Positions 204 to 58,523 of a stretch of DNA of 64,000 bases are shown here, piece by piece. Position 1 is the first letter of the stretch; each line of letters opens with the position of its first letter. The notes below the pieces were generated by a model. That model had not been told where the DNA came from. It made no database searches and saw nothing but the letters and a program-made list of their open reading frames with translations. This stretch comes from a virus: the IMG/VR virus record IMGVR_UViG_3300049847_000321, positions 1 to 64,000 of that record, one strand, 5' to 3'. The translations under genes were made by a program, and so were the position numbers.

Positions 204-409
204 GTGCATCAAAATGGGTTCATGTTGAAGCTGACATTCTTGAGGTGACAGACAAAGCCATTCTCATAGAAGTTGTTGATATAGGTAGTTGTTGGATCCC
301 GAAATCGCAACTAGATGAACCGGACAGATATGAAGTCGGTGATGTCGATATTATCGTTTCAATGACTCGATGGATCGCCAATGAGAAAGGATTGGAGAGT
401 GACGAATGA
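200..409 (+). CDS. Small acidic conserved phage protein (69 aa)
   Basis: This 69-aa acidic protein is probably a small beta-rich domain. Its pattern (VEADILEVTDKAILIEV, then WIPKSQL, then an acidic IANEKGLE end) resembles small phage proteins of unknown function that carry a KAxLV...WIPKS core. It starts in the stop of the preceding membrane peptide, and its own stop overlaps the start of the 11-mer repeat gene at 406. All three are thus translated as one coupled unit. I cannot assign a function. Confidence 0.65.
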   Translation: MSASKWVHVEADILEVTDKAILIEVVDIGSCWIPKSQLDEPDRYEVGDVDIIVSMTRWIANEKGLESDE

Positions 410-918
410 AACTAATACCTCTAGCCCTTCTACGAAAGAAACGTGCCTGCCAAGAGCAACTGTCTCTGGTAGAAAGCGAATGGCCTCAAGGCATACCGCT
501 TACGCAAGAGACTGCCGAAAGGTTCCTAGAACTGGAACTAGACAGTAACTGGGTAGTAGAGAACCTGCTAACTCAGCAAGAGCAGATAGAATACAAAAGG
601 ATCGAACAACTTGCATCAGCAGAATACAAAAGGATCGAACAACCTGCATATGCAGAATACAAAAGGAGCATAGCACCTGCATCAGCAGAATACAATAGGA
701 TCAAACAACTTGCAAGGGCAGAATACTTAGGGATCGAACAACCTGCATGGGCAGAATACGAAAGGATTCAACAACCTGCATGGGCAGAATACAAAAGGAT
801 TCAACAACTTGCAAAAGCAGAATACGAAAGGATTCAACAACCTGCATGGGCAGAATACGATAGGAAGATGGTCATGGCTGTTCTGGAACTACTTCTCAAA
901 CGAAAGGAGACCAAGTGA
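406..918 (+). CDS. 11-residue repeat protein, copy 1 (170 aa)
   Basis: This is a member of a five-copy family in this window. About 60 conserved N-terminal residues begin MKLIPLALLRKKRACQEQLS. Eight tandem 11-residue units of the form AEYxRIxQPAx follow, with the third variable residue being S, Y, W, K or R. A conserved basic helix, VLELLLKRKETK, ends the protein. Codon use in the units is nearly invariant (GAATAC for EY, GCA for A). Each unit is Pro-broken and probably a short amphipathic helix, so the protein may be a helical hairpin solenoid; this is inference. The final codons contain AAGGAG, a ribosome site for whatever follows. The block 619-726 is identical to 58356-58463 in copy 5. 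Function unknown. Confidence 0.85.
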   Translation: MKLIPLALLRKKRACQEQLSLVESEWPQGIPLTQETAERFLELELDSNWVVENLLTQQEQIEYKRIEQLASAEYKRIEQPAYAEYKRSIAPASAEYNRIKQLARAEYLGIEQPAWAEYERIQQPAWAEYKRIQQLAKAEYERIQQPAWAEYDRKMVMAVLELLLKRKETK

Positions 919-1008
919 TGATTGTCTGGCATGACATTGATGCGAGATAATAACGGCACGGGGCTTACCTGTCACATGTCAACTTACACACTGGGCGGAG
1001 TACAACGA

Positions 1009-1239
1009 ATGATTTCCTTTACTGTATATCCAAAATCCCATCACCAGACTCAAGAAGAAGCGTCTCGACTATTTCGAGAAGCGATTAACCGAGAACTTGA
1101 TTTAGCAGAAGCTGAGGGCTGTGTGATGAAATTGACAATAGATAATGAATTCGGTGCCGGTTGTTTTATAGATGACAGCGGAGTGGCCAGATGTGTAAAA
1201 ACCAAACTGATTACAATTATCCTAGAAGGAGAGATGTAA
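1009..1239 (+). CDS. Hypothetical protein, paralogue A (76 aa)
   Basis: The start at 1009 has GGCGGAG upstream and makes the N-terminus (MISFTV) match the next gene. The in-frame TTG at 922 would add 29 residues with no counterpart there. The protein shares FREAINRELDLAEAEGC and an ITIILEGEM end with the gene at 1240, so the two are a tandem duplication. The fold looks like beta, a long helix, then beta strands. No function is recognised. An 11-codon reading frame (918-950) that follows the repeat gene may be a remnant of an older gene start. Confidence 0.6.
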   Translation: MISFTVYPKSHHQTQEEASRLFREAINRELDLAEAEGCVMKLTIDNEFGAGCFIDDSGVARCVKTKLITIILEGEM

Positions 1240-1626
1240 ATGATTTCCTTTACTGTAGACCGAAGGCCAGGTCATCGCTCTCAAAGAGCGTACCAACTTC
1301 TACGAGAATCAATTAACCGAGAACTTGACCTAGCAGAAGCTAGGGGCTGTGAGGTTGTACTGTCAATTGAAAACCAATTGCATGACGATTATTTGGCAGA
1401 TGGTAGAATTGACATGTCTGTAGTAGGCAGGATAATTACAATTTACATTCAAGGTGAATTACATCTCAACCATTCAAATGGAGACAAGAATGCCGATCAA
1501 GGGGTTTTTCCCGACAACAGCCTTAACGATGGCAAGGGAAACGCAATCACTGGTCCCGAAGTGCGGGCTTTGCCAGCTTTACAAGACCTGCCAAAGCCCG
1601 AAGATGGAGCCGACGGGCAGAGGTGA
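1240..1626 (+). CDS. Hypothetical protein, paralogue B with overprinted C-terminus (128 aa)
   Basis: This is the tandem paralogue of the gene ending at 1239; the shared part runs from MISFTV to about IQGEL (residue 75). There the sister gene stops, but this one continues for about 50 residues. The extra part has low-complexity composition and lies over the first 137 nt of the UDG gene in another frame. The simplest reading is that the original stop was lost and the tail is overprinted. AGGAG at 1228-1232 serves the start. Function unknown. Confidence 0.6.
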   Translation: MISFTVDRRPGHRSQRAYQLLRESINRELDLAEARGCEVVLSIENQLHDDYLADGRIDMSVVGRIITIYIQGELHLNHSNGDKNADQGVFPDNSLNDGKGNAITGPEVRALPALQDLPKPEDGADGQR

Positions 1627-2686
1627 ATGTCGAGTCTTAATTGTAGGTGAAGCACCTGGGGCCACCGAAGATGAAGAAGGTAGACAGTTTATAGGTGAGT
1701 CTGGTCAGATTCTGCGCGACACAATCAAATCATTGGGGTTCATGCCAAACAGAGATTGTTGGATCACCAATGCCATTATCTGTCGGCCACCTAACAATGT
1801 CATTCCGCATAAGAATGTGATAGACTGGTGCCGCCCAAATCTGTTGAATACGATCAAAGAGAAGATGCCACAGGTTATCATTCTCTGCGGAAGCACAGCC
1901 GTCTCAAGTTTATTAGGTCATCTGTGGAAAGATGAAGTAGGTACAATCAGTCGATGGGTTGGCTGGCAGATTCCGAATATGAAATTGAATGCCTGGATCT
2001 GCCCGACGTTTCATCCGTCGTTCTTGCTGCGAACAAAAGATGACATGTTGACTAAGATGTTCAAACAGCACCTGAAAAAGGCATTTGCTCTTGAAGGCTG
2101 TCCATTCATCAAGCCACCGAATTACAAAGAACGAATCAAGGTCTTGATAGGCAAGGAAGATGAAGTCTGTGAAACCTTAGAAAAGTTCATGGGCAAAGGC
2201 CACCCAATTGCATTCGATTACGAAACCAACATGTTGAAACCTGACAGTGACAAGGCCCGCATTGTTTCGTGTTCCGTATCTAATGGAACAGAAACGATTG
2301 CTTATCCATGGCATGGCAAAAAAGTGATTAATACAACCCGTGCTATATTGCGTTCTCCCGTGCCCAAAATTGCAGCGAACATGAAGTTCGAGCAGCGATG
2401 GACAAGGGCCAAACTCAAATGTAACGTGCGCAATTGGGACTTCGATACGATGATTGCCGCGCACGTCTTAGACCATCGGCCTGATATTACTTCCTTGAAG
2501 TTCTTGGCTTTTGCAGTATTAGGCCAAGGTGATTACGATTCGCATATCGCGCCTTACTTGAAAGGCAAGGGCGGTAACTTCGAGAATCGAATCAAAGAAG
2601 TCGATCTACCCAATCTGTTGCTTTACAACGGCATGGACGCCTTACTTGAATTCCATCTGGCAAGAGTACAAAAGGAGCAACTATGA
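1490..2686 (+). CDS. Uracil-DNA glycosylase fused to a DnaQ-like 3'-5' exonuclease
   Basis: The protein has two domains. Residues 20-205 match family 4/5 uracil-DNA glycosylases: GEAPG at 53-57, HPSFL at 175-179, and four cysteines (25, 28, 98, 114) placed like the Fe-S ligands of that family. Residues 215-398 form the proofreading exonuclease normally found in PolA: FDYET at 242-246 (Exo I), NMKFE at 297-301 (Exo II) and YNGMD at 379-383 (Exo III). The polymerase domain is the next gene, which starts in this gene's stop. The enzyme probably removes uracil from phage DNA and edits during replication. The start at 1490 (GGAGA upstream) was chosen over the ATG at 1454, which has no ribosome site and adds unrelated residues. 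Confidence 0.9.
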   Translation: MPIKGFFPTTALTMARETQSLVPKCGLCQLYKTCQSPKMEPTGRGECRVLIVGEAPGATEDEEGRQFIGESGQILRDTIKSLGFMPNRDCWITNAIICRPPNNVIPHKNVIDWCRPNLLNTIKEKMPQVIILCGSTAVSSLLGHLWKDEVGTISRWVGWQIPNMKLNAWICPTFHPSFLLRTKDDMLTKMFKQHLKKAFALEGCPFIKPPNYKERIKVLIGKEDEVCETLEKFMGKGHPIAFDYETNMLKPDSDKARIVSCSVSNGTETIAYPWHGKKVINTTRAILRSPVPKIAANMKFEQRWTRAKLKCNVRNWDFDTMIAAHVLDHRPDITSLKFLAFAVLGQGDYDSHIAPYLKGKGGNFENRIKEVDLPNLLLYNGMDALLEFHLARVQKEQL

Positions 2687-4071
2687 AAGCCACCAAAAAA
2701 GATGCCTACAAATTATTCCACGATGGCACATTGGCACTGGCAGAGATTGAAGGCAACGGTATTAGAGTCGATATAGATTATCTTAACACGAAAATAGAAA
2801 AGACTGATAAAAAGATTGTCAGGTTGCAGAATCGTCTCAAGGCAGATAAGGTGTTCAAGACGTGGCGGCGAAGATACGGTGGCAAGACAAACCTGGGCAG
2901 TCGTGAACAACTCGGTGAGATCATCTTTACAGAACTTGGGTACAAATGTTCTGAGTACACAAAAGGTGGCAGGCCGAAAGCTGACGAACATACCTTAGCG
3001 AGCGTTGATCTCCAGTTTGTCAAAGACTATCTCCTGATTGAGAAATTAAAGAAGGCTAATGGAACGTACCTCAAAGGCATTCGCCGCGAAGTCTGTAATG
3101 GCTATCTACATCCGAGTTTCAGCCTAGGCTTGGCCAGGACATATCGTTCAAGTTCTCAGGATCCGAATTTTCAGAACATTCCTATTCGTAATCCTGAAAT
3201 CAGCAAACTGATTCGCAATTGCTTTATACCTAGATTGCCTGATCGACATTTGGTTGAAATTGATTACGGCGGCATCGAGGTCAAAATTGCGGCGTGTTAC
3301 AACAAAGATCCTATGATGATTCGCTACATCAAAGATCCGAAATCAGACATGCACCGAGATATGGCCGCGCAGATATTTATGATGAAGAACGAACAGGTGA
3401 GTAAACTGACTAGGTATATTGCCAAGAACATGTTTGTGTTTCCAGAGTTTTATGGCAGCTATCATGTTGACGTTGCCAAGAATCTCTGGGAAGGCATCGA
3501 CAGGTTGAAGCCGACAATTGAAGGTAGTGACTTGTCAGTGAGAGATCATTTGACTAAGAAGGGTCTGAAAAAGCGAGGTGCCTGCAAACATGGTGAAAAG
3601 CCGATGCCAGGTACATTTGAATCTCACATTCAGAAAGTCGAGCATGATTTTTGGAACAATCATTTTCGGGTTTACAATGATTGGAAAAAAACATGGTATC
3701 AAAAGTATTTAGAACGTGGGTATTTCGATATGCTGACTGGCTTTCGTGTTGATGGTTGGCATAAGCGGAATGACGTGACGAACTACCCAGTGCAAGGGGC
3801 GGCTTTCCATTGCTTGCTGAAAAGCCTGATCGAATTGCAGAACTGGTTAAACAGCAGAGACATGGGTGCACTGATTGTTGGTCAAATTCACGATTCAATC
3901 ATTGCTGACGTTCCTGCGAAGGAGTTAAAGTTGTTTCTCCGAAAAGCCAAAGAGATTATGACTCAGAGAATTCCTGAATTGTGGAAATGGATCATCGTGC
4001 CGCTTGAAGTCGAAGCCGAAGTCGCTCCGGCAGGTGATAGTTGGTTCAAGAAAGAAAAGGTCGCCATCTAA
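2683..4071 (+). CDS. DNA polymerase, family A (palm/fingers/thumb only)
   Basis: This is a polymerase of 462 aa without exonuclease, because the editing domain lies in the preceding gene. Motif A is DYGGIE at about 194-199, with the catalytic Asp. Motif B (the O-helix) has R244 and K248 ahead of Y257-G258. Motif C is HDS at 403-405. The O-helix has one residue more than E. coli Pol I between Lys and Tyr-Gly, and reads FVFPEFYG, as in a number of phage PolA proteins. The ATGA overlap with the UDG-exonuclease gene implies coupled synthesis and probably a two-subunit enzyme. It is the only replicative polymerase in the window. Confidence 0.93.
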   Translation: MKATKKDAYKLFHDGTLALAEIEGNGIRVDIDYLNTKIEKTDKKIVRLQNRLKADKVFKTWRRRYGGKTNLGSREQLGEIIFTELGYKCSEYTKGGRPKADEHTLASVDLQFVKDYLLIEKLKKANGTYLKGIRREVCNGYLHPSFSLGLARTYRSSSQDPNFQNIPIRNPEISKLIRNCFIPRLPDRHLVEIDYGGIEVKIAACYNKDPMMIRYIKDPKSDMHRDMAAQIFMMKNEQVSKLTRYIAKNMFVFPEFYGSYHVDVAKNLWEGIDRLKPTIEGSDLSVRDHLTKKGLKKRGACKHGEKPMPGTFESHIQKVEHDFWNNHFRVYNDWKKTWYQKYLERGYFDMLTGFRVDGWHKRNDVTNYPVQGAAFHCLLKSLIELQNWLNSRDMGALIVGQIHDSIIADVPAKELKLFLRKAKEIMTQRIPELWKWIIVPLEVEAEVAPAGDSWFKKEKVAI

Positions 4072-4083
4072 AAGGAGTTTGAA

Positions 4084-4356
4084 ATGGAAAATGTTGTCGA
4101 GATTGATGACGGTGATTATATCATCAAGGTTATGCCGATCAACAAAACAAAAGCCAGAGAAAGTGGTATTGTGCATTACACAATAGGTTATAAGGCAGCG
4201 GTTATTCATAAAGCGATTTTGAACAAAGCATCTTATGTAACATCACAATGTCCTACAGCATCTATAGCAGAAAGGTTAGCACATGCTTGGATTCGGGTTC
4301 AAAAAGAAGAAGGATCAATCACAATCAACACAGGAGCAAATAATGAAAAAGGTTAA
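4084..4356 (+). CDS. Hypothetical protein (90 aa)
   Basis: A strong ribosome site (AAAGGAG) lies 6 nt before the ATG. The protein is 90 aa, a mixed alpha/beta domain beginning MENVVEIDDGDYIIKV. It has a helix of the form ASIAERLAHAWIRVQKEEG near the end, reminiscent of small phage proteins of unknown role. Its last codons overlap the start of the next small gene at 4343. It sits directly after the polymerase in the replication operon, so a replication-linked role is possible. No motif shows one. Confidence 0.65.
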   Translation: MENVVEIDDGDYIIKVMPINKTKARESGIVHYTIGYKAAVIHKAILNKASYVTSQCPTASIAERLAHAWIRVQKEEGSITINTGANNEKG

Positions 4357-4624
4357 ATTGTTGAGAAGCATGAATCAAGGTGAAGTTGATAAATTCTTAG
4401 ATGAATTAGGAGTGTTGATTGAAAACAACATTCCAAAAGATACAGGATTTGTTTTGTTGATTATTCCTACATGTAATCATGATCCTGAACAACGTCACCA
4501 ACCTGCGACAGTATTATCCATTTCAGACATTGACAAAAGAGATATGCCAATGGTATTAGGTGATGTAAAACGTGAAATGGAAGAAAGAATTAAAATGGGT
4601 CTGGCAGATATTGATTCGGAGTAG
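4343..4624 (+). CDS. Hypothetical protein (93 aa)
   Basis: The start at 4343 is preceded by CAGGAG with 7-nt spacing; the upstream in-frame ATG at 4283 lacks a site and would run inside the preceding gene. The product begins MKKVKLLRSMNQGEVDKFLD. It has a hydrophobic strand (FVLLIIP) followed by a His/Glu/Arg-rich turn (NHDPEQRHQP) and an acidic helical end. It is probably a small soluble alpha/beta protein. No family was recognised, and coding-style composition is the main support. Confidence 0.6.
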   Translation: MKKVKLLRSMNQGEVDKFLDELGVLIENNIPKDTGFVLLIIPTCNHDPEQRHQPATVLSISDIDKRDMPMVLGDVKREMEERIKMGLADIDSE

Positions 4625-4627
4625 AAC

Positions 4628-5017
4628 ATGAAGATCCTAATAACTGGCAGTCCTGATTTCACTGACTACGCCATTGTCAAAACTAAAATGGACTCGTTCA
4701 CACGAAAGTTGAAAAGAGTTACAGTAATCAGTGGCGGACGGTCAATGTCGGCTGGCGCAACTATTTTTGGAGCTGACTATTTTGGTGAGTTTTGGGCGTT
4801 TGAACGATTTCGCAAATGCCCAACGGTTGACATCTATCATTTGAACCCACATAAAACAAAACATTCTCAGGAAGAACATGATAAACACAATCGAATTCTT
4901 CTTAAAAAATGTGATGCGGTTGTGTTTTTTATAGAGGAGCCAATTGACAATAAAACCAGAGACATTCTTGAATTGGCAAAGAAGATCAGGAAGCCCTTCA
5001 GAAAGGTGACGATATGA
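4628..5017 (+). CDS. SLOG-family (YspA/DUF2493-like) nucleotide-binding protein
   Basis: The 129-aa protein starts MKILITGSPDFTDYAIV and then has ISGGRSMSAGATIFGAD and, later, KKCDAVVFFIEEP. This layout (beta-GSRxF-like turn, Gly-rich SGG turn, GAD, DAVVxF) is that of YspA/DUF2493 members of the SLOG superfamily, a Rossmann-like fold that binds nucleotides or nucleotide-derived ligands. Such genes are common in phage genomes, with no agreed function. It lies between the polymerase group and the clamp loader, and its stop overlaps the clamp loader start. Confidence 0.75.
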   Translation: MKILITGSPDFTDYAIVKTKMDSFTRKLKRVTVISGGRSMSAGATIFGADYFGEFWAFERFRKCPTVDIYHLNPHKTKHSQEEHDKHNRILLKKCDAVVFFIEEPIDNKTRDILELAKKIRKPFRKVTI

Positions 5018-9369: not shown

Positions 9370-9570
9370 ATGACCATGAATAAAATAGACCTTATCAACA
9401 TTATTGAAGATTTGGAAGATTGGGGAAACGAAGTTATTGACAAATACCTTTCCGGATCAGGAGATTGTTTCTGTAAAGAAGGTAGATACATTTGTGAAAA
9501 TCACACCCTAATTAATAGATTCCTTGATATTATAAAAAGAGGAGAAAGTAAATGCCAAGAACCTGGATAG
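9370..9570 (+). CDS. Small acidic hypothetical protein (66 aa)
   Basis: The start at 9370 was chosen because GGAG lies upstream at 9358-9361; the in-frame ATG at 9328 lies within the preceding gene. The protein is acidic and helical (IDLINIIEDLEDWGNEVID), with CFC and IC cysteines near the middle and a helical end. It overlaps the start of the exonuclease gene by 19 nt. Nothing identifies its role. Confidence 0.55.
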   Translation: MTMNKIDLINIIEDLEDWGNEVIDKYLSGSGDCFCKEGRYICENHTLINRFLDIIKRGESKCQEPG

Positions 9571-10466
9571 TCATTGACGCAAACTACCTTTGTTGGCGGG
9601 CCTTTCATACAACGGGGCAACTGTCATTCGGTGAAAAGCCGACTGGCGTGATCTTTGGTTTCTTGAAGGCCGTCCGAGAAATGCAGAAGCTATTTGGTCA
9701 GAGAGTTGTGTTTGCTTTCGATCATGGTAAGAACATTCGATTGGAGAAACTGCCGGGCTACAAGTCAACCAGAAAAGCCATGCGAAAGAAAATGTCTGAG
9801 GAAGACAAAGAGAAGCACCTCAAGATGCAGAAGCAAATTGAATTGCTCAAAACCAAGTATCTTCGTCAAGTCGGGTATCGCAATGTCTTTTATCAAGAAG
9901 GTTATGAAGCCGATGATATTATTGCATCGGTCGTATTAAACTCAATTCCCAAAACTGATACAATCGTGATTGTGTCGGCCGACAAAGACCTGTATCAGTT
10001 GATTAGAAAGGATCGAATCACGATCTACAACCCACATCGAATGGTCCGAATGAACGGTGAGTTGTTCACAAAAACATATGATCTATTGAATCCTAGACAT
10101 TGGGTAGGTGTGAAAGCAATTGCAGGTTGCAGCACAGATGATATTCCCGGTGTGCCACATGTGGGTGAAAAGACGGCAATCAAGATTCTGAAACTTTTGG
10201 AAGAGTGTGCGAAGACACCGAGAGTATTAACATCGGGCGAATCTCACATGTTGGCCAAGAATGTCGAATTCCGAAATAGAACAAAACGCAACATGAAGTT
10301 GGTGAGACTGCCTTATCCGGGCTGCAAGACTTTCCAATTGTGGAAAGATAAGGTCACGTCTGACAAATGGAATGAGTTGATGAAAAATCTAGGAATGAAA
10401 TCTTTGATCGGCAAAGATGATCCGGTTTCACGGCGTAAAGCTGCGCGACGTGGCTTTAATTTTTAA
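9552..10466 (+). CDS. 5'-3' exonuclease / flap endonuclease (PolA N-domain-like)
   Basis: This is a 304-aa FEN/T5 exonuclease-type protein. It begins TWIVIDANYLCWRAFHTTG, giving the first metal Asp. VVFAFDHGKNIR follows, with the helical-arch residues (KLPGYKSTRKAMR) after it. The acidic cluster YEADDIIASV and VSADKDLYQL come next, then a helix-hairpin-helix-like segment (DDIPGVPHVGEKTAIKIL). Together with the preceding UDG-exonuclease and polymerase genes it completes the activities of Pol I as three separate polypeptides: flap removal, proofreading and synthesis. GGAG lies 8 nt before the ATG. Confidence 0.92.
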   Translation: MPRTWIVIDANYLCWRAFHTTGQLSFGEKPTGVIFGFLKAVREMQKLFGQRVVFAFDHGKNIRLEKLPGYKSTRKAMRKKMSEEDKEKHLKMQKQIELLKTKYLRQVGYRNVFYQEGYEADDIIASVVLNSIPKTDTIVIVSADKDLYQLIRKDRITIYNPHRMVRMNGELFTKTYDLLNPRHWVGVKAIAGCSTDDIPGVPHVGEKTAIKILKLLEECAKTPRVLTSGESHMLAKNVEFRNRTKRNMKLVRLPYPGCKTFQLWKDKVTSDKWNELMKNLGMKSLIGKDDPVSRRKAARRGFNF

Positions 10467-10478
10467 GGAGACCAAGTA

Positions 10479-11129
10479 ATGAAACTAATACCACTAGCCC
10501 TTCTACGAAAGAAAGGTGCCTGCCAAAAGCAACTATCTCTGATAGAAAACGAATGGCCTAGCGGCATACCGCTTACGCAAGAGACTGCCGAAAGGTTCCT
10601 AGAACTGGAACTTGATATTGACTGGGTAGTAGAGAACCTGCTGACTGAGCAAGAGCAGACAGAATGCGAAAGGATTCAACAACCTGCAAAAGCAGAATAC
10701 GAAAGGATCGAACAACCTGCATTAGCAGAATACGAAAGGATCACACAACCTGCATTAGCAGAATACGAAAGGATCACACAACCTGCAAAAGCAGAATACT
10801 TAAGGATCGAACAACCTGCATATGCAGAATACTTAAGGATCGAACAACTTGCATTAGTAGAATACTTAAGGATTCAACAACCTGCAAAAGCAGAATACAA
10901 TAGGATTCAACAACTTGCATCAGCAGAATACAAAAGGATCGAACAACCTGCATGGGCAGAATACTTAAGGATTCAACAACCTGCATTAGCAGAATACAAA
11001 AGGATTCAACAACCTGCATTAGCAGAATACTTCAGGATTAAACAACCTGCATTAGCAGAATACAAAAGGAAGAAAGTCATGGCTATTCTGGAACTACTTC
11101 TCAAACGAAAGGAAGAAAACGGACAATGA
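10479..11129 (+). CDS. 11-residue repeat protein, copy 2 (216 aa)
   Basis: The ends are the same as in the other four copies: MKLIPLALLRKKGACQKQLS at the start and VMAILELLLKRKEENGQ at the end. Between them are twelve 11-residue units, mostly AEYxRIxQPAx with L, K, Y, W or S at the variable place. The first unit is degenerate (TECERIQQPAK). The ribosome site AAGGAGACC, 7 nt before the ATG, is the family leader. The gene lies between the FEN and RuvC genes and overlaps the RuvC start (ATGA). It thus interrupts a DNA-metabolism operon without breaking translation. Function unknown. Confidence 0.85.
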   Translation: MKLIPLALLRKKGACQKQLSLIENEWPSGIPLTQETAERFLELELDIDWVVENLLTEQEQTECERIQQPAKAEYERIEQPALAEYERITQPALAEYERITQPAKAEYLRIEQPAYAEYLRIEQLALVEYLRIQQPAKAEYNRIQQLASAEYKRIEQPAWAEYLRIQQPALAEYKRIQQPALAEYFRIKQPALAEYKRKKVMAILELLLKRKEENGQ

Positions 11130-48205: not shown

Positions 48206-48646
48206 TCAGTCCGAAGAATCAACCTGTTCAACTAGACCGCACTTAGAACATTTATACTGGTTCCAGCAGTTACCTAATCTCGCTATGTGTTCCATCTTAT
48301 GAACACAACCAACGCGATACACTTTGACTTCCTCAGAGCATGTTCCAATGTACTCGAACAGGAACGCCTTTTCGTGGAAGATTATCAGCGTCAAGCCGCT
48401 GACGTATTTGCTACCTGGCATCTTTGCCTGGAGATACACTTCGAGTTCCGGCGAGTACATTGACCTCATGTGCCAGTATTCCTTAAGCGGAACCTCAGTG
48501 ACACACGATTTGGATACACATTGATGACCTTCTTTGCTTATCAATTTGAGGTTCAGCCAAGGGAACCTTTTATTGAGATACTTCAGGTCGTCTTGAGTCT
48601 CTTTTCGGATTGCATGATCGTCGTGTGCCAGTTTGTTAATCAACAT
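48206..48646 (-). CDS. Hypothetical protein with C-terminal zinc ribbon (146 aa)
   Basis: Starts at 48646 (MLINKLAHDD), overlapping the stop of repeat copy 3 (TGATG). The N-terminus is helical. A central Cys pair (HQCVSKSCVTEV) and the end (YKCSKCGLVEQVDSSD) suggest metal binding. It relies on the GGAGACC site that lies within the last codons of the repeat gene. Function unknown. Confidence 0.6.
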   Translation of the reverse strand: MLINKLAHDDHAIRKETQDDLKYLNKRFPWLNLKLISKEGHQCVSKSCVTEVPLKEYWHMRSMYSPELEVYLQAKMPGSKYVSGLTLIIFHEKAFLFEYIGTCSEEVKVYRVGCVHKMEHIARLGNCWNQYKCSKCGLVEQVDSSD

Positions 48647-49026
48647 CACTTGGTCTCCTTTCGTTTGAGAAGTAGTTCCAGAATAGCCATGACTTTCTTC
48701 CTTAAGTATTCTGCTAATGCAGGTTGTTTGATCCCTAAGTATTCTGCCCATGCAGGTTGTATGATCCTTTTGTATTCTGCTAATGCAGGTTGTATGATCC
48801 TTTCGTATTCTGCTTTTGCAAGTTGTTGAATCCTTTCGTATTCTATCTGCTCTTGCTCAGTCAGCAGGTTCTCTACTACCCAGTCAATATTAAGTTCCAA
48901 TTCTAGGAACCTTTCGGCAGTCGCTTTCGTAAGCGGTATGCCGCTAGGCCATTCGCTTTCTACCAGAGACAGCTGCTTTTGGCAGGCACGTTTCTTTCGT
49001 AGAAGGTCTAGTGGTATGATCTTCAT
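48646..49026 (-). CDS. 11-residue repeat protein, copy 3 (126 aa)
   Basis: The ATG at 49026 has the family site AAAGGAGACCAAGTA. Conserved head MKIIPLDLLRKKRACQKQLS and tail VMAILELLLKRKETK enclose four units plus a terminal half unit (AEYERIIQPAL, AEYKRIIQPAW, AEYLGIKQPAL). The last codons provide AAGGAG for the 48206 gene, whose ATG overlaps the stop. It lies on the minus strand, so the family is present in both orientations. Confidence 0.85.
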   Translation of the reverse strand: MKIIPLDLLRKKRACQKQLSLVESEWPSGIPLTKATAERFLELELNIDWVVENLLTEQEQIEYERIQQLAKAEYERIIQPALAEYKRIIQPAWAEYLGIKQPALAEYLRKKVMAILELLLKRKETK

Positions 49027-49070
49027 TACTTGGTCTCCTTTCGTTTGCGAAGTTACTTGGTCTGAAGAAA

Positions 49071-49107
49071 GAAAACCTCTAGCCCCCACGCGGATGAGGG
49101 CTAGAGG
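49071..49107 (-). terminator. Strong hairpin upstream of repeat copy 3
   Basis: CCTCTAGCCC (49076-49085) pairs with GGGCTAGAGG (49098-49107); the minus-strand sequence then reads TTTTC (49075-49071). A second smaller stem, AAAGCCAG/CTGGCTTT (49109-49116, 49133-49140), encloses a copy of AAGGAGACC on the plus strand. It likely terminates the transcript from upstream before copy 3. Confidence 0.65.
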
Positions 49108-50383: not shown

Positions 50384-50695
50384 TTAGAGTTGGATGTCAT
50401 CACATATGTCACGGACAAAGTTGATTTCGTCCATTGTTGTTTGTTCCGCTTCATCTTCCGACATACTATACTCTCCGACGAGAGACGTAATCACATCCTG
50501 TAGCCCGTGCCAAGCACGAAGCCACTTCGATCCTTTATGGCGACCGGCCATCGCTTCTTGACCAAGATTCTCTAAAGCACCAATACACAATCTCTGTGCA
50601 GCTTGGTTGCCTTTCATGCACTCTCGGTAAAGATCATTCATTGAATGGAACTTGCGAAGTTTGCTTTTGGTAAGTCGTTTATATTTGGTCATCAC
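50384..50695 (-). CDS. Helical hypothetical protein (103 aa)
   Basis: The N-terminus is strongly basic (MMTKYKRLTKSKLRKFHSMN), followed by helices (QRLCIGALENLGQEAMAG, LRAWHGLQDVITSLVGEY) and an acidic end (DEAEQTTMDEINFVRD). The start overlaps the stop of repeat copy 4, with a GGAGACTAAGTG site. It may be a nucleic-acid-binding accessory protein. Function unknown. Confidence 0.6.
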   Translation of the reverse strand: MMTKYKRLTKSKLRKFHSMNDLYRECMKGNQAAQRLCIGALENLGQEAMAGRHKGSKWLRAWHGLQDVITSLVGEYSMSEDEAEQTTMDEINFVRDICDDIQL

Positions 50696-51075
50696 TTAGT
50701 CTCCTTTCGTTTGAGAAGTAGTTTCAAAATAGCCATGACTAACTTCCTTTTGTATTCTGCATATGCAGGTTGTGCGATCCTTTTGTATTCTGCATATGCA
50801 GATTTTTGGCAGTCGTTTTCGTATTTTGCCCATGCAGGTTTTATGATCCTTAAGTATTCTGCTGATGCAGGCTGTGCGATCCTTTCGTATTCTACCTGCT
50901 CTTGCTCAGTTAGTAGGTTGTTCGCTACCCACTCAATATCAAGTTCCAATTTTAGGAACCTTTCGGCAGTCTCTTGCGTAAGCGGTATGCCTTGAGGCCA
51001 TTCGCTTTCTACCAGAGACAGTTGCTCTTGGCAGGCACGTTTCTTTCGTAGAAGGGCTAGAGGTATGATCTTCAT
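50692..51075 (-). CDS. 11-residue repeat protein, copy 4, degenerate (127 aa)
   Basis: The head (MKIIPLALLRKKRACQEQLS) and tail (VMAILKLLLKRKETK) match the family. Only about four units are present, and one is a 12-residue relic (AKYENDCQKSAY) instead of 11. The remaining units (AEYLRIIKPAW, AEYKRIAQPAY) are regular. It seems to be the oldest or most decayed copy. The last codons supply the ribosome site of the 50384 gene. The leader is AAGGAGACCAAGTAATG. Confidence 0.85.
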   Translation of the reverse strand: MKIIPLALLRKKRACQEQLSLVESEWPQGIPLTQETAERFLKLELDIEWVANNLLTEQEQVEYERIAQPASAEYLRIIKPAWAKYENDCQKSAYAEYKRIAQPAYAEYKRKLVMAILKLLLKRKETK

Positions 51076-51087
51076 TACTTGGTCTCC

Positions 51088-51357
51088 TTAGTGGGGGCGA
51101 TAGTTCTTCGGATCGTTGATATAAGTGTTCAGTCGGTTCCACAGTTCCGGTGTCATATTGAACTTTAAGGATCGCAGTCGCTCATTGTGAGCCGCGCATT
51201 GTTGACAAACCATTAGATGTTGATTCCTGAACTTCTCAGTCTCCTTTCTCAGTAAGTCCTTCGGCAAGTGGTCCGATACTTGTGACAAAGACTTGGCGAA
51301 GGAAATCACGTCTTTGCACTTCGGATCGAGTTTAAGTCTACCTTTTCTTTTCGCCAC
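51088..51357 (-). CDS. Small basic hypothetical protein with CxxC (89 aa)
   Basis: The protein is basic at the start (MAKRKGRLKLDPKCKDVIS) and helical thereafter, with VCQQCAAHNERLRSLKF in the middle, a CxxC pair. The shape is that of a small zinc-binding or DNA-binding protein. It ends just before repeat copy 4. Function unknown. Confidence 0.55.
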   Translation of the reverse strand: MAKRKGRLKLDPKCKDVISFAKSLSQVSDHLPKDLLRKETEKFRNQHLMVCQQCAAHNERLRSLKFNMTPELWNRLNTYINDPKNYRPH

Positions 51358-51359
51358 GG

Positions 51360-51593
51360 TTACTCCTCAAGTAGAATGTGTACTGTGTCTCCAACGATCT
51401 TGTGAGGAATCTTACCTGATAAGATTCTGTCCCAAAGATCATCCGACAATTCAGTCCAAGACTTCATCACTTGCCGGAGGCAAGATCGGTCCTTGGCAAA
51501 AGAGTAACCGTTCATAGCCCATGCGAAAATCGACGGAGCGTATATCATCTCGGTAGATTGCAAGATAATTTTCGTTTTAGTGGTCGTTTTCAT
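51360..51593 (-). CDS. Small hypothetical protein (77 aa)
   Basis: The start at 51593 (MKTTTKTKIILQSTEMIY) has AAAGGAGACCGAGTG; longer in-frame starts are in the leader of the next gene. The protein is small, with a central helix (FAWAMNGYSFAKDRSCLRQV) and a beta end (GDTVHILLEE). It lies upstream of the 51088 gene by 2 nt. No role is known. Confidence 0.6.
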   Translation of the reverse strand: MKTTTKTKIILQSTEMIYAPSIFAWAMNGYSFAKDRSCLRQVMKSWTELSDDLWDRILSGKIPHKIVGDTVHILLEE

Positions 51594-51632
51594 CACTCGG
51601 TCTCCTTTGTTTAAGCGATTCAGAACGGAAGA

Positions 51633-52898: not shown

Positions 52899-54374
52899 TC
52901 AAGTCGTGACCTGCAGGGCATCCAATTGTGCCCTTGACCTCATGCCGCCAATGTGACGCTTCATCTTCCATAAATTGTTGAACGCACCTGAAGATGCGTC
53001 AACCTGATCTTTATAACGTGAGTGAGGAAAATGTTTCATTTCTTCCACGTATTCTTTATTCCAAGGCTTTTTAACAATGTAGACTGATCCTGCGTTAACC
53101 ATAGAACTCAATGAGTCGGCTCGATCCAATTTGCTGCCATCACTTGCGCCAACTTTGTGAATCCTTGTTTTGAAACCTGGCAGACTTCTAGCGGAATTAT
53201 ATGCAGATTCTTTTCCACCACTTCCAGGTTCTTGTTCAAAAACTACTATAACATTCTTACCGTCTTTTGCAGCAGTTTCTCGGATAATTACTTCACGTTC
53301 CCACGAATCAACTTGGACACGAACAACATCAAGAACCCAAAAGAACCCATAAATGTCGTGAGCCATGAGGACACCTACTGTCCATGCTCCGCCTAAATGC
53401 GTTCCGGCTTTATCCCAATATCGGACAATTTTTCTGAACGACTTCCAAGGAATTTGCTTTATTGCAGGATCCCATTCCTTAAGCAATTTCGTCTTGAACT
53501 TACCGCCGCCCTTAGGAACAGGATTCTGAAGGACTTGACCTGCGTAACCGTATTCGCCCAGGTTCTGAGCCATCTCTTCCAATACTTCTTGCGGCAATCG
53601 AATAGGATCAAACAGTTTGTCCTCTGAGTAGTATTTGATAAGATGTGCAGGTTTGATATCCTCAGTGACTTCTCCAGGGAGACAGATATGTTTAACGTTC
53701 TTTCTTTCAAGGAACAAATTTGTAGGATCGTCTTGATGCAACCTTTGCATAATAAGAATTGTAGGTGTGACTCGCTTATCAACTTTTCGAGTCGGTAGAG
53801 TTTCTTGGAGCCAATGATTTGCAGCCTCCAGCTCTAATGTCGAAACAGCTTGGTTCGGATCTAATGGATCGTCGATAATCAGAAAGTGACCGTGCATACC
53901 AGTAACTGAGCCATTGACACCTACAGCATAACGATAGCCACCTTTTGTATTAGCATAGTAGCCCTTGGTGTTCTGATCGACACGAAGTAAAACTTCTGGA
54001 TAGCACTTCCCGTATAAATCACTAATAACCACATCGCGTGACTTGCGTGACAAGTCCATAGCAAGCGGATAAGAATATGATCCGCAGATGCACCTGGCAG
54101 ACAGCATTCTTGTCCAGACCCAAGCTGGAAACATAATACTACAGATGGTGCTCTTACTTGTTCCTGGCGAAATGTTTATGACAAGATCATATTCTTTGTG
54201 CAAACCTAAGAACACACGTTCTGCCAACCTTTGCATCTCATCACAAAGGTATTCAATATGCCAATTCCAGACTGGCTTCTCTGGGATCAACACATGCCAA
54301 AATTGCTGAACAAAATCAAAGAAGGATTCCCGACCTAATGCAGCAATCAATTCTATTTTACTCACCGCTGGCAT
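52899..54374 (-). CDS. terL: Terminase large subunit (packaging ATPase/nuclease)
   Basis: The 491-aa protein has an N-terminal ATPase with Walker A-like SPGTSKST, Walker B LIIDDPLD and LIMQRLHQDDPT. The C-terminal RNase H-like nuclease has RYWDKAGT (first Asp), EQEPGSGGKE (second acidic site) and KDQVDASSGAFNNL (third). It drives DNA into the prohead through the portal and cuts concatemers. It overlaps the small-subunit gene by 17 nt. The order small then large is normal, but the pair is far from the portal. Confidence 0.92.
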   Translation of the reverse strand: MPAVSKIELIAALGRESFFDFVQQFWHVLIPEKPVWNWHIEYLCDEMQRLAERVFLGLHKEYDLVINISPGTSKSTICSIMFPAWVWTRMLSARCICGSYSYPLAMDLSRKSRDVVISDLYGKCYPEVLLRVDQNTKGYYANTKGGYRYAVGVNGSVTGMHGHFLIIDDPLDPNQAVSTLELEAANHWLQETLPTRKVDKRVTPTILIMQRLHQDDPTNLFLERKNVKHICLPGEVTEDIKPAHLIKYYSEDKLFDPIRLPQEVLEEMAQNLGEYGYAGQVLQNPVPKGGGKFKTKLLKEWDPAIKQIPWKSFRKIVRYWDKAGTHLGGAWTVGVLMAHDIYGFFWVLDVVRVQVDSWEREVIIRETAAKDGKNVIVVFEQEPGSGGKESAYNSARSLPGFKTRIHKVGASDGSKLDRADSLSSMVNAGSVYIVKKPWNKEYVEEMKHFPHSRYKDQVDASSGAFNNLWKMKRHIGGMRSRAQLDALQVTT

Positions 54375-55149
54375 ATTCTTCCTCCTTTGCGGGCAATGCT
54401 TTCACGGTACCCATATCAATTACGTTCGATTCATTACCTTCGAGAGACTTCAAAAGTTCTCGCTTTAATTCCTTAGGCAATTTGTTCACGTCAATCAATT
54501 CATGTTGATGGCGGATATTCCCTTCAATCTCTAAAGTCTGACGATCACCGTAGCCACGACTGCGATTGAAGGTCTTCTGCGCGTGCAGAATTGCCGCTTC
54601 ACTACCTGATCGAACCAGGCGAATGAAATGATCCTCAAAGAAGTTCCCTTTGTGCCATTCGATTTCATCAACCAATTTCGGAAAGTCTGGGTCATTACTA
54701 ATCCAGTCATCCAGCATCTTCTTCGACATACAGAGCATTGTCATTGCCTTGGATACATTGAAGCTGGTCGATACGATAGCATGGATGAACAAGTGCTGGC
54801 GCATCTTAGTGCCGGCATCGGCCAGGAGAGCCTCTATCCTTCGTTGTCCGTTATCTTCTTGATCTAATGCCTGTATCTCCTCATATAGCTTCAAGGCTTC
54901 GGGAGAAAGGCGTTTATAGATGTAGTCCTTAAGAGTGGGCAACTCTTTCTCCGTCTTGCCTTCCCGTGCTTCTCGAATACACTTTTTAAGCGTCGGGTTT
55001 TCTTTTGCCCAAGTTCTCAACGACTGGTGATGAACGCCGATGATTTTACTGATTTCACCTAGAGAACGCCCTTCTTTAACCAGTTCGTATACTTTCCAAT
55101 AGAACTCATCCTTCCACGCAGACTTTTTTCTTTTCTTCTTGGTTATCAC
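54358..55149 (-). CDS. terS: Terminase small subunit-like HTH protein (263 aa)
   Basis: A GTG start at 55149 with AAAAGGAGG was chosen; the in-frame TTG at 55197 overlaps the promoter. Two helix-turn-helix-type segments are visible: GRSLGEISKIIGVHHQSLRT (about 27-46) and NVSKAMTMLCMSKKMLDDWI. The N-terminus is very basic (ITKKKRKKSAW). The C-terminal part is acidic. Recognition of phage DNA for packaging is the expected role, supported by overlap with terL. Confidence 0.75.
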   Translation of the reverse strand: MITKKKRKKSAWKDEFYWKVYELVKEGRSLGEISKIIGVHHQSLRTWAKENPTLKKCIREAREGKTEKELPTLKDYIYKRLSPEALKLYEEIQALDQEDNGQRRIEALLADAGTKMRQHLFIHAIVSTSFNVSKAMTMLCMSKKMLDDWISNDPDFPKLVDEIEWHKGNFFEDHFIRLVRSGSEAAILHAQKTFNRSRGYGDRQTLEIEGNIRHQHELIDVNKLPKELKRELLKSLEGNESNVIDMGTVKALPAKEEEYASGE

Positions 55150-55168
55150 GGTTAACCTCCTTTTGCCT

Positions 55169-55197
55169 AGAATATAGGAAAATTCGCTAGAAGTCAA
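55169..55197 (-). promoter_or_regulatory. Sigma70-type promoter of the terminase operon
   Basis: Minus-strand -35 TTGACT (55197-55192) with -10 TATTCT (55174-55169, 17 bp) or TATATT (15 bp). It lies 20 nt before the GTG of terS. Upstream on the same side is a tandem GCCAACAT motif (55210-55227) that also occurs at 59698-59715. Confidence 0.6.
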
Positions 55198-55317
55198 GGT
55201 ATCGCAAAAGCCAACATAGCCAACATCGGAGAGGACGAATCAAAAAAATCTCCTAAAATACAAGGTTTTTGAAAGATTAAAGAAAAATTTCTTTCTTTCA
55301 AATTACCCTAAAAAGCG

Positions 55318-55346
55318 TTGACTGTTGACTGCGCATCGAATAGAAA
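55318..55346 (+). promoter_or_regulatory. Sigma70-type promoter of the rightward 55.4 kb block
   Basis: -35 TTGACT (55318-55323), 17 bp, -10 TAGAAA (55341-55346). A second overlapping TTGACT begins 7 bp later and would pair with TTGATA. An AT-rich inverted repeat (TTTGAAAGA 55268-55276 and TCTTTCAAA 55294-55302) lies just upstream and could be an operator. Together with the terS promoter this makes a divergent control region. Confidence 0.65.
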
Positions 55347-55396
55347 ATTGATACAAGCCATACAGTATGGCTAACCTTAACCTAGAGGGCTTGAAC

Positions 55397-55615
55397 ATGC
55401 TAAAGTGTAAGCATTACCGAACGAAGATGATTGGCCACAAAGTAGTACATCCGAGAAACAAAAGGAAACGCCCGATCCAAAAAGATGTCTACTACTGTTA
55501 TGATTGTGCCAATCGCATTGTCCGTAAGTGCGCCTGCACACATACCCAAATCGTCATCGCCCCGTTACTGCAAGCCGACGTAACTGGTTTGCGAAACTTG
55601 AATGGAGTCCGATAA
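55397..55615 (+). CDS. Small basic Cys-containing protein (72 aa)
   Basis: The start at 55397 has AGAGGG at 7-nt spacing; an in-frame ATG at 55367 lacks a site. Basic residues dominate (YRTKMIGHKVVHPRNKRKRP). Cys occurs as CYDC, CAN-type spacing and CAC, with His, a compact zinc-finger pattern (DVYYCYDCANRIVRKCACTH). It is the first gene of the rightward block. Its role is unknown; nucleic-acid binding is possible. Confidence 0.6.
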   Translation: MLKCKHYRTKMIGHKVVHPRNKRKRPIQKDVYYCYDCANRIVRKCACTHTQIVIAPLLQADVTGLRNLNGVR

Positions 55616-55860
55616 TGAACGATCCGACTGAATCAACCCGACGTGAACTTGTCCAAGAGATCAACTCCAATGCAAATCCCCGTGAAAGGTTAGAAGCCCT
55701 TCACGGACAAGTCTGGGACACGACAGAACTTATGGATGACTTTGAGGTCATCGGTTTCCGAGCTCCGTTTGTTGTCGTCAAACGACGATCCGACAATAAA
55801 GTCGGGTCATTGACTTTCCAGCACGACCCTCGTTTCTACTTTGACTTCACGGAGAAATGA
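55615..55860 (+). CDS. Conserved small phage protein (81 aa)
   Basis: The protein begins MNDPTESTRRELVQEINSNA; the sequence AFVVVKRRSD-type strand (FRAPFVVVKRRSDNKVGSL) and final FQHDPRFYFDF match a widespread phage protein of unknown function. It starts in the stop of the preceding gene, with GGAG upstream. No role can be stated. Confidence 0.7.
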   Translation: MNDPTESTRRELVQEINSNANPRERLEALHGQVWDTTELMDDFEVIGFRAPFVVVKRRSDNKVGSLTFQHDPRFYFDFTEK

Positions 55861-55861
55861 C

Positions 55862-56056
55862 ATGGCGGTTTCACTTCAAACACCTGAACATCTGCAATGT
55901 GATTGCGGCTCAGGCGATCCGTTTGAGAGGCACTACGACGGCCACGGAATCTATCTATTCCGTTCCTGCGACAAGTGCTTCCATGAGAAAGCGTCACACT
56001 TTCGTTCCGATATATTCGAGGACTACGAATGTGACGAACCGATAGACGAAGATTAA
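55862..56056 (+). CDS. Small CxC/CxxC protein (64 aa)
   Basis: The start at 55862 follows the stop of the preceding gene by one base. The protein has CDCGSGDPF near residues 13-21 and CDKCFHEKA near 37-45, a zinc-binding arrangement common in small phage proteins. The end is acidic. Function unknown. Confidence 0.6.
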   Translation: MAVSLQTPEHLQCDCGSGDPFERHYDGHGIYLFRSCDKCFHEKASHFRSDIFEDYECDEPIDED

Positions 56057-56081
56057 AAAATCGTTTACATCTTTTCGCGTA

Positions 56082-56121
56082 CCGCAAAAAGCCTTGTCGC
56101 TTTTTGCGGCGCGAATAGAAT
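56082..56121 (+). promoter_or_regulatory. Hairpin with promoter-like boxes before the 56183 gene
   Basis: The stem CCGCAAAAAGC (56082-56092) and GCTTTTTGCGG (56099-56109) has a 6-nt loop. The loop starts a promoter-like box: TTGTCG (56094-56099), 16 bp, TAGAAT (56116-56121). The same GCGAATAGAA sequence stands at the 55.34 kb -10. Either a terminator for the upstream gene or a promoter under secondary-structure control is possible. Confidence 0.5.
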
Positions 56122-56182
56122 ACATATACAGTCAGATAGGCTGACTGAAACCTTCGCCCATAACATGAAAGGCATGTGACCT

Positions 56183-56590
56183 ATGAGTCTGAAACTTCCG
56201 AGCATCAAAGCTGTACGTAAAGACCTGGCAGAGATCAAATCTGATCTCCATATAGCAGCGTTCCCAAAAGCTGGCGAATCACTTGCCATCCGGCTTTTCG
56301 TCAATGATGAAGGCCAATGGCACATTGATTCCGGTGACCCGAGAAACGACAGCACAGAACCTGGCTGGCGTGCCGAAGGCACCGTCACATCGAAAACCAA
56401 CTGTGAGCAATTGGCCATCAAATTGCTTAATGATCTTCGAGACCAACAGGCGGAAGCTGAGGCCGTCCGACAGGCAATTGACGATGGTGCAATCGCTACA
56501 GAAATGGCAGTTAATGCTGCTCTACCTCCGCCATTGCCAACGGAACCTCAATTTGAAATCAATGCCAGCGAACCTGTACGATTGATTTGA
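56183..56590 (+). CDS. Hypothetical protein (135 aa)
   Basis: A basic helical start (MSLKLPSIKAVRKDLAEIKS) leads into a small beta domain with WHIDSGDPRNDSTEPGWRAEG and helices (EQLAIKLLNDLRDQQAEAEA), then a Pro-rich end. It lies between the zinc proteins and the NusG-like gene. A weak site precedes the ATG. No family is recognised. Confidence 0.6.
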   Translation: MSLKLPSIKAVRKDLAEIKSDLHIAAFPKAGESLAIRLFVNDEGQWHIDSGDPRNDSTEPGWRAEGTVTSKTNCEQLAIKLLNDLRDQQAEAEAVRQAIDDGAIATEMAVNAALPPPLPTEPQFEINASEPVRLI

Positions 56591-56629
56591 TAACCAAACT
56601 TCGCCCATTTCTCTAACCAGGCCAATGCC

Positions 56630-57796
56630 ATGAAAACTACCGGCAAGAAAGCTGTAACCAACAAGAAAGTGAGAACACGAAAATGCACACGACGAAAACC
56701 CTCGATCACCGTCCACAATTCTGCACCTGCAGGACCTGCCGTCAAGTCTACCTCACGGTCGAAGCCAACTCGTGCATCCGGGGCTACTGTTCCATGCACT
56801 GTCAAAACGAAAAAGCAACGTATCTCGGATGGCGAAAAGAAACTGCCTTCCAAAAAGGCAGCACACAATACAATATCCTCACAAAAGCCAACGAAATCGG
56901 AGACATTGAAGCCCCGCCCTATCTCATACCAAAGTCTCAAGAGGACATTAACCAGATGCGAAAAATGCTTCCGCACATTTTCGGAGTCGGAGCTGAGCAA
57001 GAGCTATTTGCCTCAACCTGACGACGAAAAACTCTGCCTCCGATGTTCAATGCGATTCTACGTCCTCTACTGTATGCCACCTCAGCGTCAATACGTTGAC
57101 AACACTGAGGAGATACGCAGAGATTGCGTAGACGCCGGATTCCCCGACTTGGCGATGCCGACTGTACAATGGGCGGCTGTTATCGGAGGCGAGAATAAAA
57201 CGAGGACTAGGCTGTTAAAAATGGCCGGTGAACGTGGCATACGTCACTTGATCGGCAAGATCATCATTCCTAAACACGAGGAGGTTGTATGGCGACACGG
57301 GATGCGTAGAGTATCCAAGAAAAAGAGCTTTCCTGGCTATCTGATTATTCAGATGGTGTTCAACGACGACACCGATCATCTGATTAACGATTGCCCAGGC
57401 GCAGTAGGTTTACTGCCGTTTAGACCTGACTTCTATCACAAAGACATTCTGACCAAGAAAGTCTGGAAACGTCAGGCTACCGAGCATGAATTGAAACGAA
57501 TGGAAAATGAAGAAGGATCAACCCTTCTAATTTGGAAACCTACTTCACTCGAAAGTGAAGAAGCCGCTTTACTCTTACTGAGGAATGGCATGGAAAACGT
57601 GGCCACTAGGACACAGACACCTGACATTGAAGTCGGGCAGTTTGTCAAGATTCAGCATGGAGCGTTCAAAGACACGGCAGCTAAAGTGCTGGAATTGATA
57701 CAGAGCAACAAAGAACCTCAATTACGACTAGAAGTAACCCTTCTAGGCACGCTTGTTCCAATCACTTTGCCAGTGTGGCAAGTGGCATCTATTTAA
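56630..57796 (+). CDS. NusG/RfaH-like transcription elongation factor with zinc finger
   Basis: The 388-aa protein has a long basic, disordered start (residues 1-100), a Cys4 zinc site (C110, C113, C136, C139), an NGN-type domain (about 178-262: ENKTRTRLLKMAGERGI, IIIPKHEEVVWRHGMRR, SFPGYLIIQMVF, CPGAVGLLPF), an extra helical insertion, and a C-terminal KOW domain (about 334-388: VGQFVKIQHGAFKDTAAKVL). NGN plus KOW is the NusG/RfaH/LoaP set that binds RNA polymerase and alters pausing or termination. A phage copy is likely an antitermination or host-takeover factor. The zinc module and insertion are unusual. Confidence 0.8.
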   Translation: MKTTGKKAVTNKKVRTRKCTRRKPSITVHNSAPAGPAVKSTSRSKPTRASGATVPCTVKTKKQRISDGEKKLPSKKAAHNTISSQKPTKSETLKPRPISYQSLKRTLTRCEKCFRTFSESELSKSYLPQPDDEKLCLRCSMRFYVLYCMPPQRQYVDNTEEIRRDCVDAGFPDLAMPTVQWAAVIGGENKTRTRLLKMAGERGIRHLIGKIIIPKHEEVVWRHGMRRVSKKKSFPGYLIIQMVFNDDTDHLINDCPGAVGLLPFRPDFYHKDILTKKVWKRQATEHELKRMENEEGSTLLIWKPTSLESEEAALLLLRNGMENVATRTQTPDIEVGQFVKIQHGAFKDTAAKVLELIQSNKEPQLRLEVTLLGTLVPITLPVWQVASI

Positions 57797-57812
57797 GAAA
57801 GGAAACCAAGCA

Positions 57813-58523
57813 ATGAAGATCATACCACTAGACCTTCTACGAAAGAAAGGTGCCTGCCAAAAGCAGCTGTCTCTGGTAGAAAGCGAATGGCCTCAAGGCA
57901 TACCGCTTACAAAAGCAACTGCCGAAAGGTTCCTAAAATTGGAACTTGATATTGACTGGGTAGCAGAGAATCTGCTGACTGAGCAAGAGCAGATAGAATA
58001 CTTAAGGATCATACAACCTGCATGGGCAGAATACTTAAGGATCAAACAACCTGCATTAGCAGAATACGAAAGGATCGAACAACCTGCAAGGGCAGAATAC
58101 AAAAGGATCGAACAACTTGCAAAAGCAGAATACGAAAGGATCATACAACCTGCACTAGCAGAATACGAAAGGATCGAACAACCTGCATGGGCAGAATACA
58201 AAAGGATTCAACAACCTGCATATGCAGAATACAAAAGGATTCAACAACCTGCATTAGCAGAATACAAAAGGATCATACAACCTGCATGGGCAGAATACGA
58301 AAGGATCGAACAACCTGCATATGCAGAATACAAAAGGATCCAACAACCTGCATATGCAGAATACAAAAGGATCGAACAACCTGCATATGCAGAATACAAA
58401 AGGAGCATAGCACCTGCATCAGCAGAATACAATAGGATCAAACAACTTGCAAGGGCAGAATACGAAAGGAAGAAAGTCATGGCTATTCTGGAACTACTCC
58501 TTAAGCGAAAGGAGACCAAGTGA
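57813..58523 (+). CDS. 11-residue repeat protein, copy 5, longest (236 aa)
   Basis: Starts at 57813 (MKIIPLDLLRKKGACQKQLS) with AAAGGAAACCAAGCA. It has fourteen full 11-residue units, then a terminal half unit and VMAILELLLKRKETK. The block 58356-58463 is identical to 619-726 in copy 1, including the variant unit AEYKRSIAPAS. It follows the NusG-like gene by 16 nt and overlaps the start of the 58520 gene, whose ribosome site is inside the KRKETK codons. Function unknown. Confidence 0.87.
   Translation: MKIIPLDLLRKKGACQKQLSLVESEWPQGIPLTKATAERFLKLELDIDWVAENLLTEQEQIEYLRIIQPAWAEYLRIKQPALAEYERIEQPARAEYKRIEQLAKAEYERIIQPALAEYERIEQPAWAEYKRIQQPAYAEYKRIQQPALAEYKRIIQPAWAEYERIEQPAYAEYKRIQQPAYAEYKRIEQPAYAEYKRSIAPASAEYNRIKQLARAEYERKKVMAILELLLKRKETK

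Follow-up and report, generated by a model that had tools for sequence, protein, structure and literature searches.

Why would a single phage genome hold many dispersed copies of one repeat-protein gene, and how did the copies reach their present places? The question is raised by a 64,000-nucleotide (nt) stretch, here called the window, comprising bases 1 to 64000 of IMG/VR record IMGVR_UViG_3300049847_000321, a 77,099-nt sequence from an uncultured phage. Because the ends of the record overlap by at least 126 nt, it is probably an essentially complete genome. The genes in question share one plan: a head of about 60 residues (beginning MKIIPLALLRKKRACQKQLSLVESEWP), an array of 4 to 14 units of the form AEYxRIxQPAx, and a tail (AEYxRKKVMAILELLLKRKETK*). 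A sequence-only reading of the window had reported five such genes and proposed either a self-spreading cassette or a set of adaptors. Our preferred explanation, to which we assign a probability of roughly 0.6, is that they encode recombining, diversified helical binding proteins that have been copied as cassettes bounded by Shine-Dalgarno (SD) sequences. The evolutionary part of this explanation is much firmer than the functional part.

Eight intact copies in one genome

All five genes reported earlier were found in place and on the expected strands, each with a head, an array, and a tail. Copies A (406 to 918; 8 units, 170 residues), B (10479 to 11129; 12 units, 216 residues), and E (57813 to 58523; 14 units, 236 residues) lie on the plus strand, while copies C (48646 to 49026; 4 units, 126 residues) and D (50692 to 51075; 4 units, one of them degenerate and 12 residues long, 127 residues) lie on the minus strand. 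These recounts agree with the 8, 12, 4, about 4, and 14 units first reported. Mechanically called open reading frames (ORFs) are longer in two cases: that of C extends to 49131 from a TTG, with the SD-preceded ATG at 49026, and that of E begins at 57753. The figure of five holds for the window only, as the whole record contains eight copies. Outside the window are F (65219 to 65796), G (65797 to 66309), which directly follows F to form a head-to-tail tandem pair, and H (74736 to 75446). Together, the eight copies occupy ∼5.8% of the genome, and every reading frame is intact. Since the heads share 86 to 97% pairwise nucleotide identity, the family likeness is not due to chance. To our knowledge, phage genomes of this size seldom contain a dispersed gene family with eight members.

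Copies extend from one Shine-Dalgarno sequence to the next

The final tail codons (AAG GAG ACC AAG TGA) double as the SD sequence of the gene behind the copy, with the stop codon and the ATG of that gene overlapping, and the same SD-bearing sequence precedes the start codon of most copies. In this way the KETK* codons place an SD ahead of the next start, so that insertion yields a translated copy and leaves the downstream gene with a translation signal. In all, the genome contains 14 occurrences of the 17-nt SD/start motif (AAGGARACYRAGYRATG), 13 of them at copy ends (13/15 distinct ends), and 400 kb of sequence from six relatives contains none. Within the window, it marks the 5′ ends of B (10465 to 10481, plus strand), C (49024 to 49040, minus), D (51073 to 51089, minus), and E (57799 to 57815, plus). 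It likewise marks the 3′ ends of A (904 to 920, plus, where it encodes the KETK* tail and provides the SD for the gene that follows), C (48644 to 48660, minus), D (50690 to 50706, minus), and E (58509 to 58525, plus). Two ends are exceptions, as A has no 5′ motif and B has no 3′ motif; the 3′ end of B runs into the target's own SD, that of a RuvC-like gene. The cassette side and the target side of a junction can therefore be distinguished.

The sole occurrence of the motif away from any copy (51591 to 51607, minus) lies ∼0.5 kb upstream of D and is preceded by tail-like sequence; it is possibly the scar of a lost copy or an unused target. Just upstream of C is a tail remnant (CTTCGCAAACGAAAGGAGACC, approximately 49035 to 49056, minus) that corresponds to the 3′ end of another copy, as would be expected of a trace left by a deleted tandem copy. 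This remnant fits the loss of tandem copies by recombination between motifs.

To compare insertion sites, relatives were gathered by their terminase (the closest share 53 to 62% identity), and 33 records were searched with a profile of the family. The profile had no match in any of the 33, an absence that is indicative given that not all of these records are complete, while it did match the present record and other carriers as positive controls. Synteny with the relatives is good across the replication genes, and no copy was present wherever synteny could be read. Copy B lies between a 5′-3′ exonuclease gene (9552 to 10466) and the RuvC-like gene (starting at 11126 and so judged from its GIDPGVSGAIG motif); in relative G045, these two genes overlap at ATGA. 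At the site of F and G, ∼100 bp separates the flanking matches in G044 and ∼240 bp in G030. The genes flanking A abut in G030 and G039, and ∼200 bp occupies the site of H in G039. This empty-site comparison covers A, B, F/G, and H, the flanks of C, D, and E having no detectable orthologues in the relatives; as the relatives are distant, the junction readings approximate the sequence before insertion. As the relatives are without copies and have the flanking genes abutting or close together, the copies were inserted in this lineage, independent loss in every relative being less likely. The copies entered amid replication genes or close to terminase genes and not within the portal-to-capsid block.

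Several features of the surrounding sequence are recorded here in their own right. Directly downstream of A is a tandem pair of paralogous genes (922 to 1239 and 1240 to 1626; MISFTV...) with 45% identity. The genes directly downstream of C (48206 to 48643, minus) and E (58520 to 58936, plus) show a weak likeness (28% over 78 columns, E value of 0.001, single comparison), and a neighboring gene may have been copied along with the cassette. A strong terminator-like hairpin of 14 pairs followed by a T-rich run (49076 to 49107, minus) lies ∼50 nt upstream of the start of C. In consensus scans around the copies, promoter-like sites did not exceed the shuffled expectation, and some terminator-like sites were present.

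Copies recombine, and their arrays vary at a few codons of a fixed frame

The 180-nt head contains 24 informative sites, and 156 of the 276 site pairs fail the four-gamete test, including 25 pairs within 30 nt of each other. The data imply a minimum of seven recombination events over this length. Judged from these sites, the heads are demonstrably mosaic and the copies recombine with each other.

Over the 72 array units, the frame is almost invariant at the codon level: A1 is GCA (63/63), E2 is GAA (72/72), Y3 is TAC (71/71), R5 is AGG (70/70), P9 is CCT (57/57), and A10 is GCA (70/71). Fourfold-site diversity in the frame is 0, 0, and 0.03, versus 0.13 in the heads. Variation is concentrated at codons 4, 7, 9, and 11, with a diversity per nucleotide of 0.66, 0.65, and 0.72 at codons 4, 7, and 11, respectively. 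The alphabets are small (three to six codons), consisting of GAA, AAA, and TTA at codon 4; GAA, CAA, AAA, and ATA at codon 7; and TAT, TTA, TGG, AAA, TCA, and AGG at codon 11. Position 9 is P, L, S, or T. The third base of codon 7 is nearly fixed, and the adenines of the frame codons are untouched.

Within units, variable codons are linked no more, or hardly more, than after shuffling; a few of the many tests gave nominal P values of 0.03 to 0.04. ATT encodes I6 in 15 units, the number that also have CAA at codon 7, which probably reflects tight linkage at a distance of one nucleotide, as read from the counts rather than from a tabulation. Units within an array are no more similar than units from different arrays (P = 0.16). 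Three consecutive units, one of them unusual (KRSIAPAS), are identical between copies A and E, which is above chance; for all other array pairs, shared blocks occur at the chance level. In the arrays of other phages, each array again has its own largely uniform codon frame, and mostly positions 4, 7, 9, and 11 vary. The frame shows nearly no synonymous change, whereas four codons vary strongly and almost without linkage; this combination clearly marks homogenization plus diversification, and we infer from it concerted evolution of the frame together with diversifying or balancing selection acting at a small number of residues.

The array is predicted to be a long hendecad helix

Plotted on an 11/3 helix (3.67 residues per turn), Tyr3, Ile6, and Ala10 form a hendecad core with 3-4-4 spacing, and positions 7, 11, and 4 are neighbors on the helical wheel (229, 262, and 295 degrees). 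This arrangement is suggestive of a single stripe of variable positions beside the core. The amphipathic 11/3 periodicity is evident from a moment of 0.31 to 0.35 at 98 degrees, and the net charge is near zero. An AlphaFold2 model of copy G (predicted local distance difference test score [pLDDT], 91) contains four short head helices followed by long helices at residues 57 to 110 and 112 to 164, and a model of one phage family with a different head (MCEF, described below) likewise gives paired long helices. An 11-residue period, 3-4-4 core spacing, and helical character, the hallmarks of hendecad coiled coils, thus appear together in the sequence, the periodicity, and the predicted model. The best viral Foldseek match to the model was A0A8S5UXY4 (59 residues, 2.4 Å, E value of 0.18), which may be a homologue of the head, and the best sequence match in the PDB was not significant.

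Related arrays occur in other uncultivated phages

The impression that no known family is represented was borne out. Neither Pfam nor NCBIfam returned a model at its curated cutoff, the only hits being sub-cutoff coiled-coil matches (weak, to flotillin and perilipin helices). PADLOC gave no match, and PHROGs gave partial, repeat-driven matches mostly to families of unknown function, none of them full length. Neither full copies nor heads retrieved a credible relative from 50,697 cultured-phage records, and 72,556 plasmid records were equally devoid of one. Matches in Corynebacterium phages were rejected on inspection as a minisatellite-like repeat (GRTMGALWAHY); the weak plasmid matches fell on pentapeptide-repeat and flotillin proteins. 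When a genome collection was scanned, the array gave no confirmed relative and the head gave one contig of a metagenome-assembled genome (MAG); among 145 genomes of that MAG's phylum, only the same MAG and one marginal case matched, and no link to a host emerged. No tRNA or Rfam match was found, and literature searches on the motif strings and on such families returned nothing relevant. The gene family is previously undescribed.

The same array is present in uncultivated phages. One group (IMG/VR L034/L054, L042/L056, and L055) has a homologous head (GACxxQ...FDWxWAAxxLL) and the same 11-residue AEYxRI array, and several of its records carry two or three copies. These genes, themselves uncharacterized, differ in having fewer copies and other tails; the likeness established covers the head and array. 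A GACxxQ-type head is also present in a Patescibacteria MAG contig (L053). Another set of proteins (MCEFVSW...GHGAI; L016, L020 to L027, and others) carries AEYEKIxQPAW arrays with the same variable positions but has an unrelated head and tail and apparently one copy per record. Since arrays on unrelated heads match by profile over 122 columns (hhalign E value of 1e-41), the array appears to behave as a module.

Other observations include, on another phage contig (L082, positions 1944 to 2999; G008), an AEYxRV array that shares its reading frame with a DNA methyltransferase-like ORF and, from a different phage (L016, 9696 to 10004), a repeat ORF of low complexity composed of Gly, Ser, Asp, and Tyr (GSGSGYGYG...). 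At ∼70.3 to 74.7 kb of the record (L017, 12609 to 17022), there are QueD-, QueE-, and FolE-like genes and a match to the queuine tRNA-ribosyltransferase family, which suggests 7-deazaguanine DNA modification.

Comparison with known repeat proteins and mobile units

Transcription activator-like effector (TALE) arrays of Xanthomonas combine an invariant repeat frame with a few hypervariable residues and variable copy number. The present arrays resemble them in this principle. In contrast, TALE units are 34-residue DNA-binding repeats, whereas here 11-residue units of near-neutral charge form long continuous helices, and the TALE-type organization (a helix-loop-helix of ∼34 residues with a variable residue pair at 12/13) is absent. 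Like phage morons, the copies are intact extra genes whose neighbors abut or nearly abut in relatives (sites B, F/G, A, and H); unlike morons, they represent one family inserted eight times, placed at SD sequences, with no excess of promoter-like sites in consensus scans around the copies examined. They share with integron cassettes the form of single-ORF units able to sit head to tail, but their ends are SD motifs, no integrase was found at the loci examined, and no attC structure was noticed, though no search was aimed at one. Nor do they resemble transposons or insertion sequences, as each cassette consists of a lone head-array-tail ORF that includes no transposase or recombinase domain.

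Weighing the explanations

Comparison of the sequences demonstrates that the gene was inserted at SD sites, copied, and duplicated in tandem, that its copies recombined, and that the array frame is invariant with few variable codons. In the mechanism that we propose, copying would proceed through a tandem or circular head-to-tail intermediate that recombines at SD-like microhomology, with the joining done by the phage's own recombination; the genome encodes a RecA-family protein besides the RuvC-like gene. In each product, an all-helical head of ∼56 residues would be followed by an extended alpha-helical stretch built from hendecads (11-residue units), in which the constant Tyr3, Ile6, and Ala10 form the packing core and positions 4, 7, and 11, on the adjacent stripe, bind partner molecules. 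Diversifying selection on the variable codons, together with frequent gene conversion or unequal crossing-over, would maintain the observed pattern. The proteins may then serve as a set of binders or inhibitors against varying host targets (host factors or defense systems) early in infection. With respect to the two earlier proposals, spread by insertion stands (relatives without copies, both strands, a tandem pair, and 13/15 ends with the motif). Self-mobility does not follow, as each unit is a single repeat-protein ORF with no mobility gene inside and phage recombination could suffice. A set of adaptors would be compatible with a hypervariable helical array.

Several points weigh against this explanation. 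The stripe is weak on its own, since three positions would be adjacent by chance in 11 of 165 cases, and position 9 also varies but sits off the stripe. The modeled hairpin turn falls midway in a regular array and may be an artifact of repetition; Foldseek returned nothing at an E value of ≤0.001. No enzymatic or mobility domain was found in the cassette, and the binder role is putative. Finally, the sequence was assembled from a metagenome, and the order of units over long distances in the arrays could be scrambled; unit composition and the four-gamete failures within 30 nt lie within read length.

Among the alternatives, a structural, scaffold, or membrane-associated helix (a coiled coil or an amphipathic 11-mer, as in apolipoproteins, perilipins, and synuclein), in which length and number matter and side-chain variation is tolerated, would account for the amphipathic 11/3 periodicity, the near-zero net charge, the long modeled helices, and the weak flotillin and perilipin matches. 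Neutral tolerance, though, predicts that the frame would also change synonymously, which it hardly does, and that variation would not recur at the same positions in other phages; the loci outside the portal-to-capsid block also argue against such a role, which we regard as improbable. Slightly less credible still is a purely selfish intragenomic cassette whose ORF is kept only because the SD-to-SD layout makes insertions harmless and whose array has no role for the phage. Dispersal on both strands, the tandem pair, the common end motif, and the lack of copies in relatives are what such an element would produce. Yet the eight intact frames, with conserved head, frame, and tail and with variation limited to a handful of codons and synonymous change nearly lacking, argue for selection on the protein, and the cassette contains no transposase or nuclease.

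Targeted hypermutation, for example, by a diversity-generating retroelement, could generate multinucleotide codon changes at defined positions on an invariant frame. A search of the record for reverse transcriptase (Pfam RVT_1) was negative while control genomes matched, and the limited codon alphabets, the nearly fixed third base of codon 7, and the invariant frame adenines are likewise contrary to it; a retroelement was rejected on these grounds, no systematic template search having been made, and hypermutation in general seems very unlikely. Collapsed or chimeric repeats in a metagenome contig are about equally remote. Short reads do handle repetitive arrays poorly, but each copy has unique flanks, array lengths differ, frames are intact, and similar arrays and multicopy records occur in independent metagenomes.

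Implications

Returning to SD-bounded cassettes encoding diversified helical binders, we tentatively extend this explanation in two directions, and the extension is more doubtful than the explanation itself. The element might be a minimal mobile cassette with ribosome-binding-site ends that spreads by recombination at SD sequences, such that every insertion is expressed and harmless, and the copies might also form a combinatorial, recombining pool of hypervariable helical binders directed against changing host targets. The findings define a phage repeat-protein family that was encountered in numerous uncultivated viruses and is joined to at least two unrelated heads. They also suggest a simple and harmless route of gene insertion, at the SD sequence, and point to a natural source of long-helix binding scaffolds.

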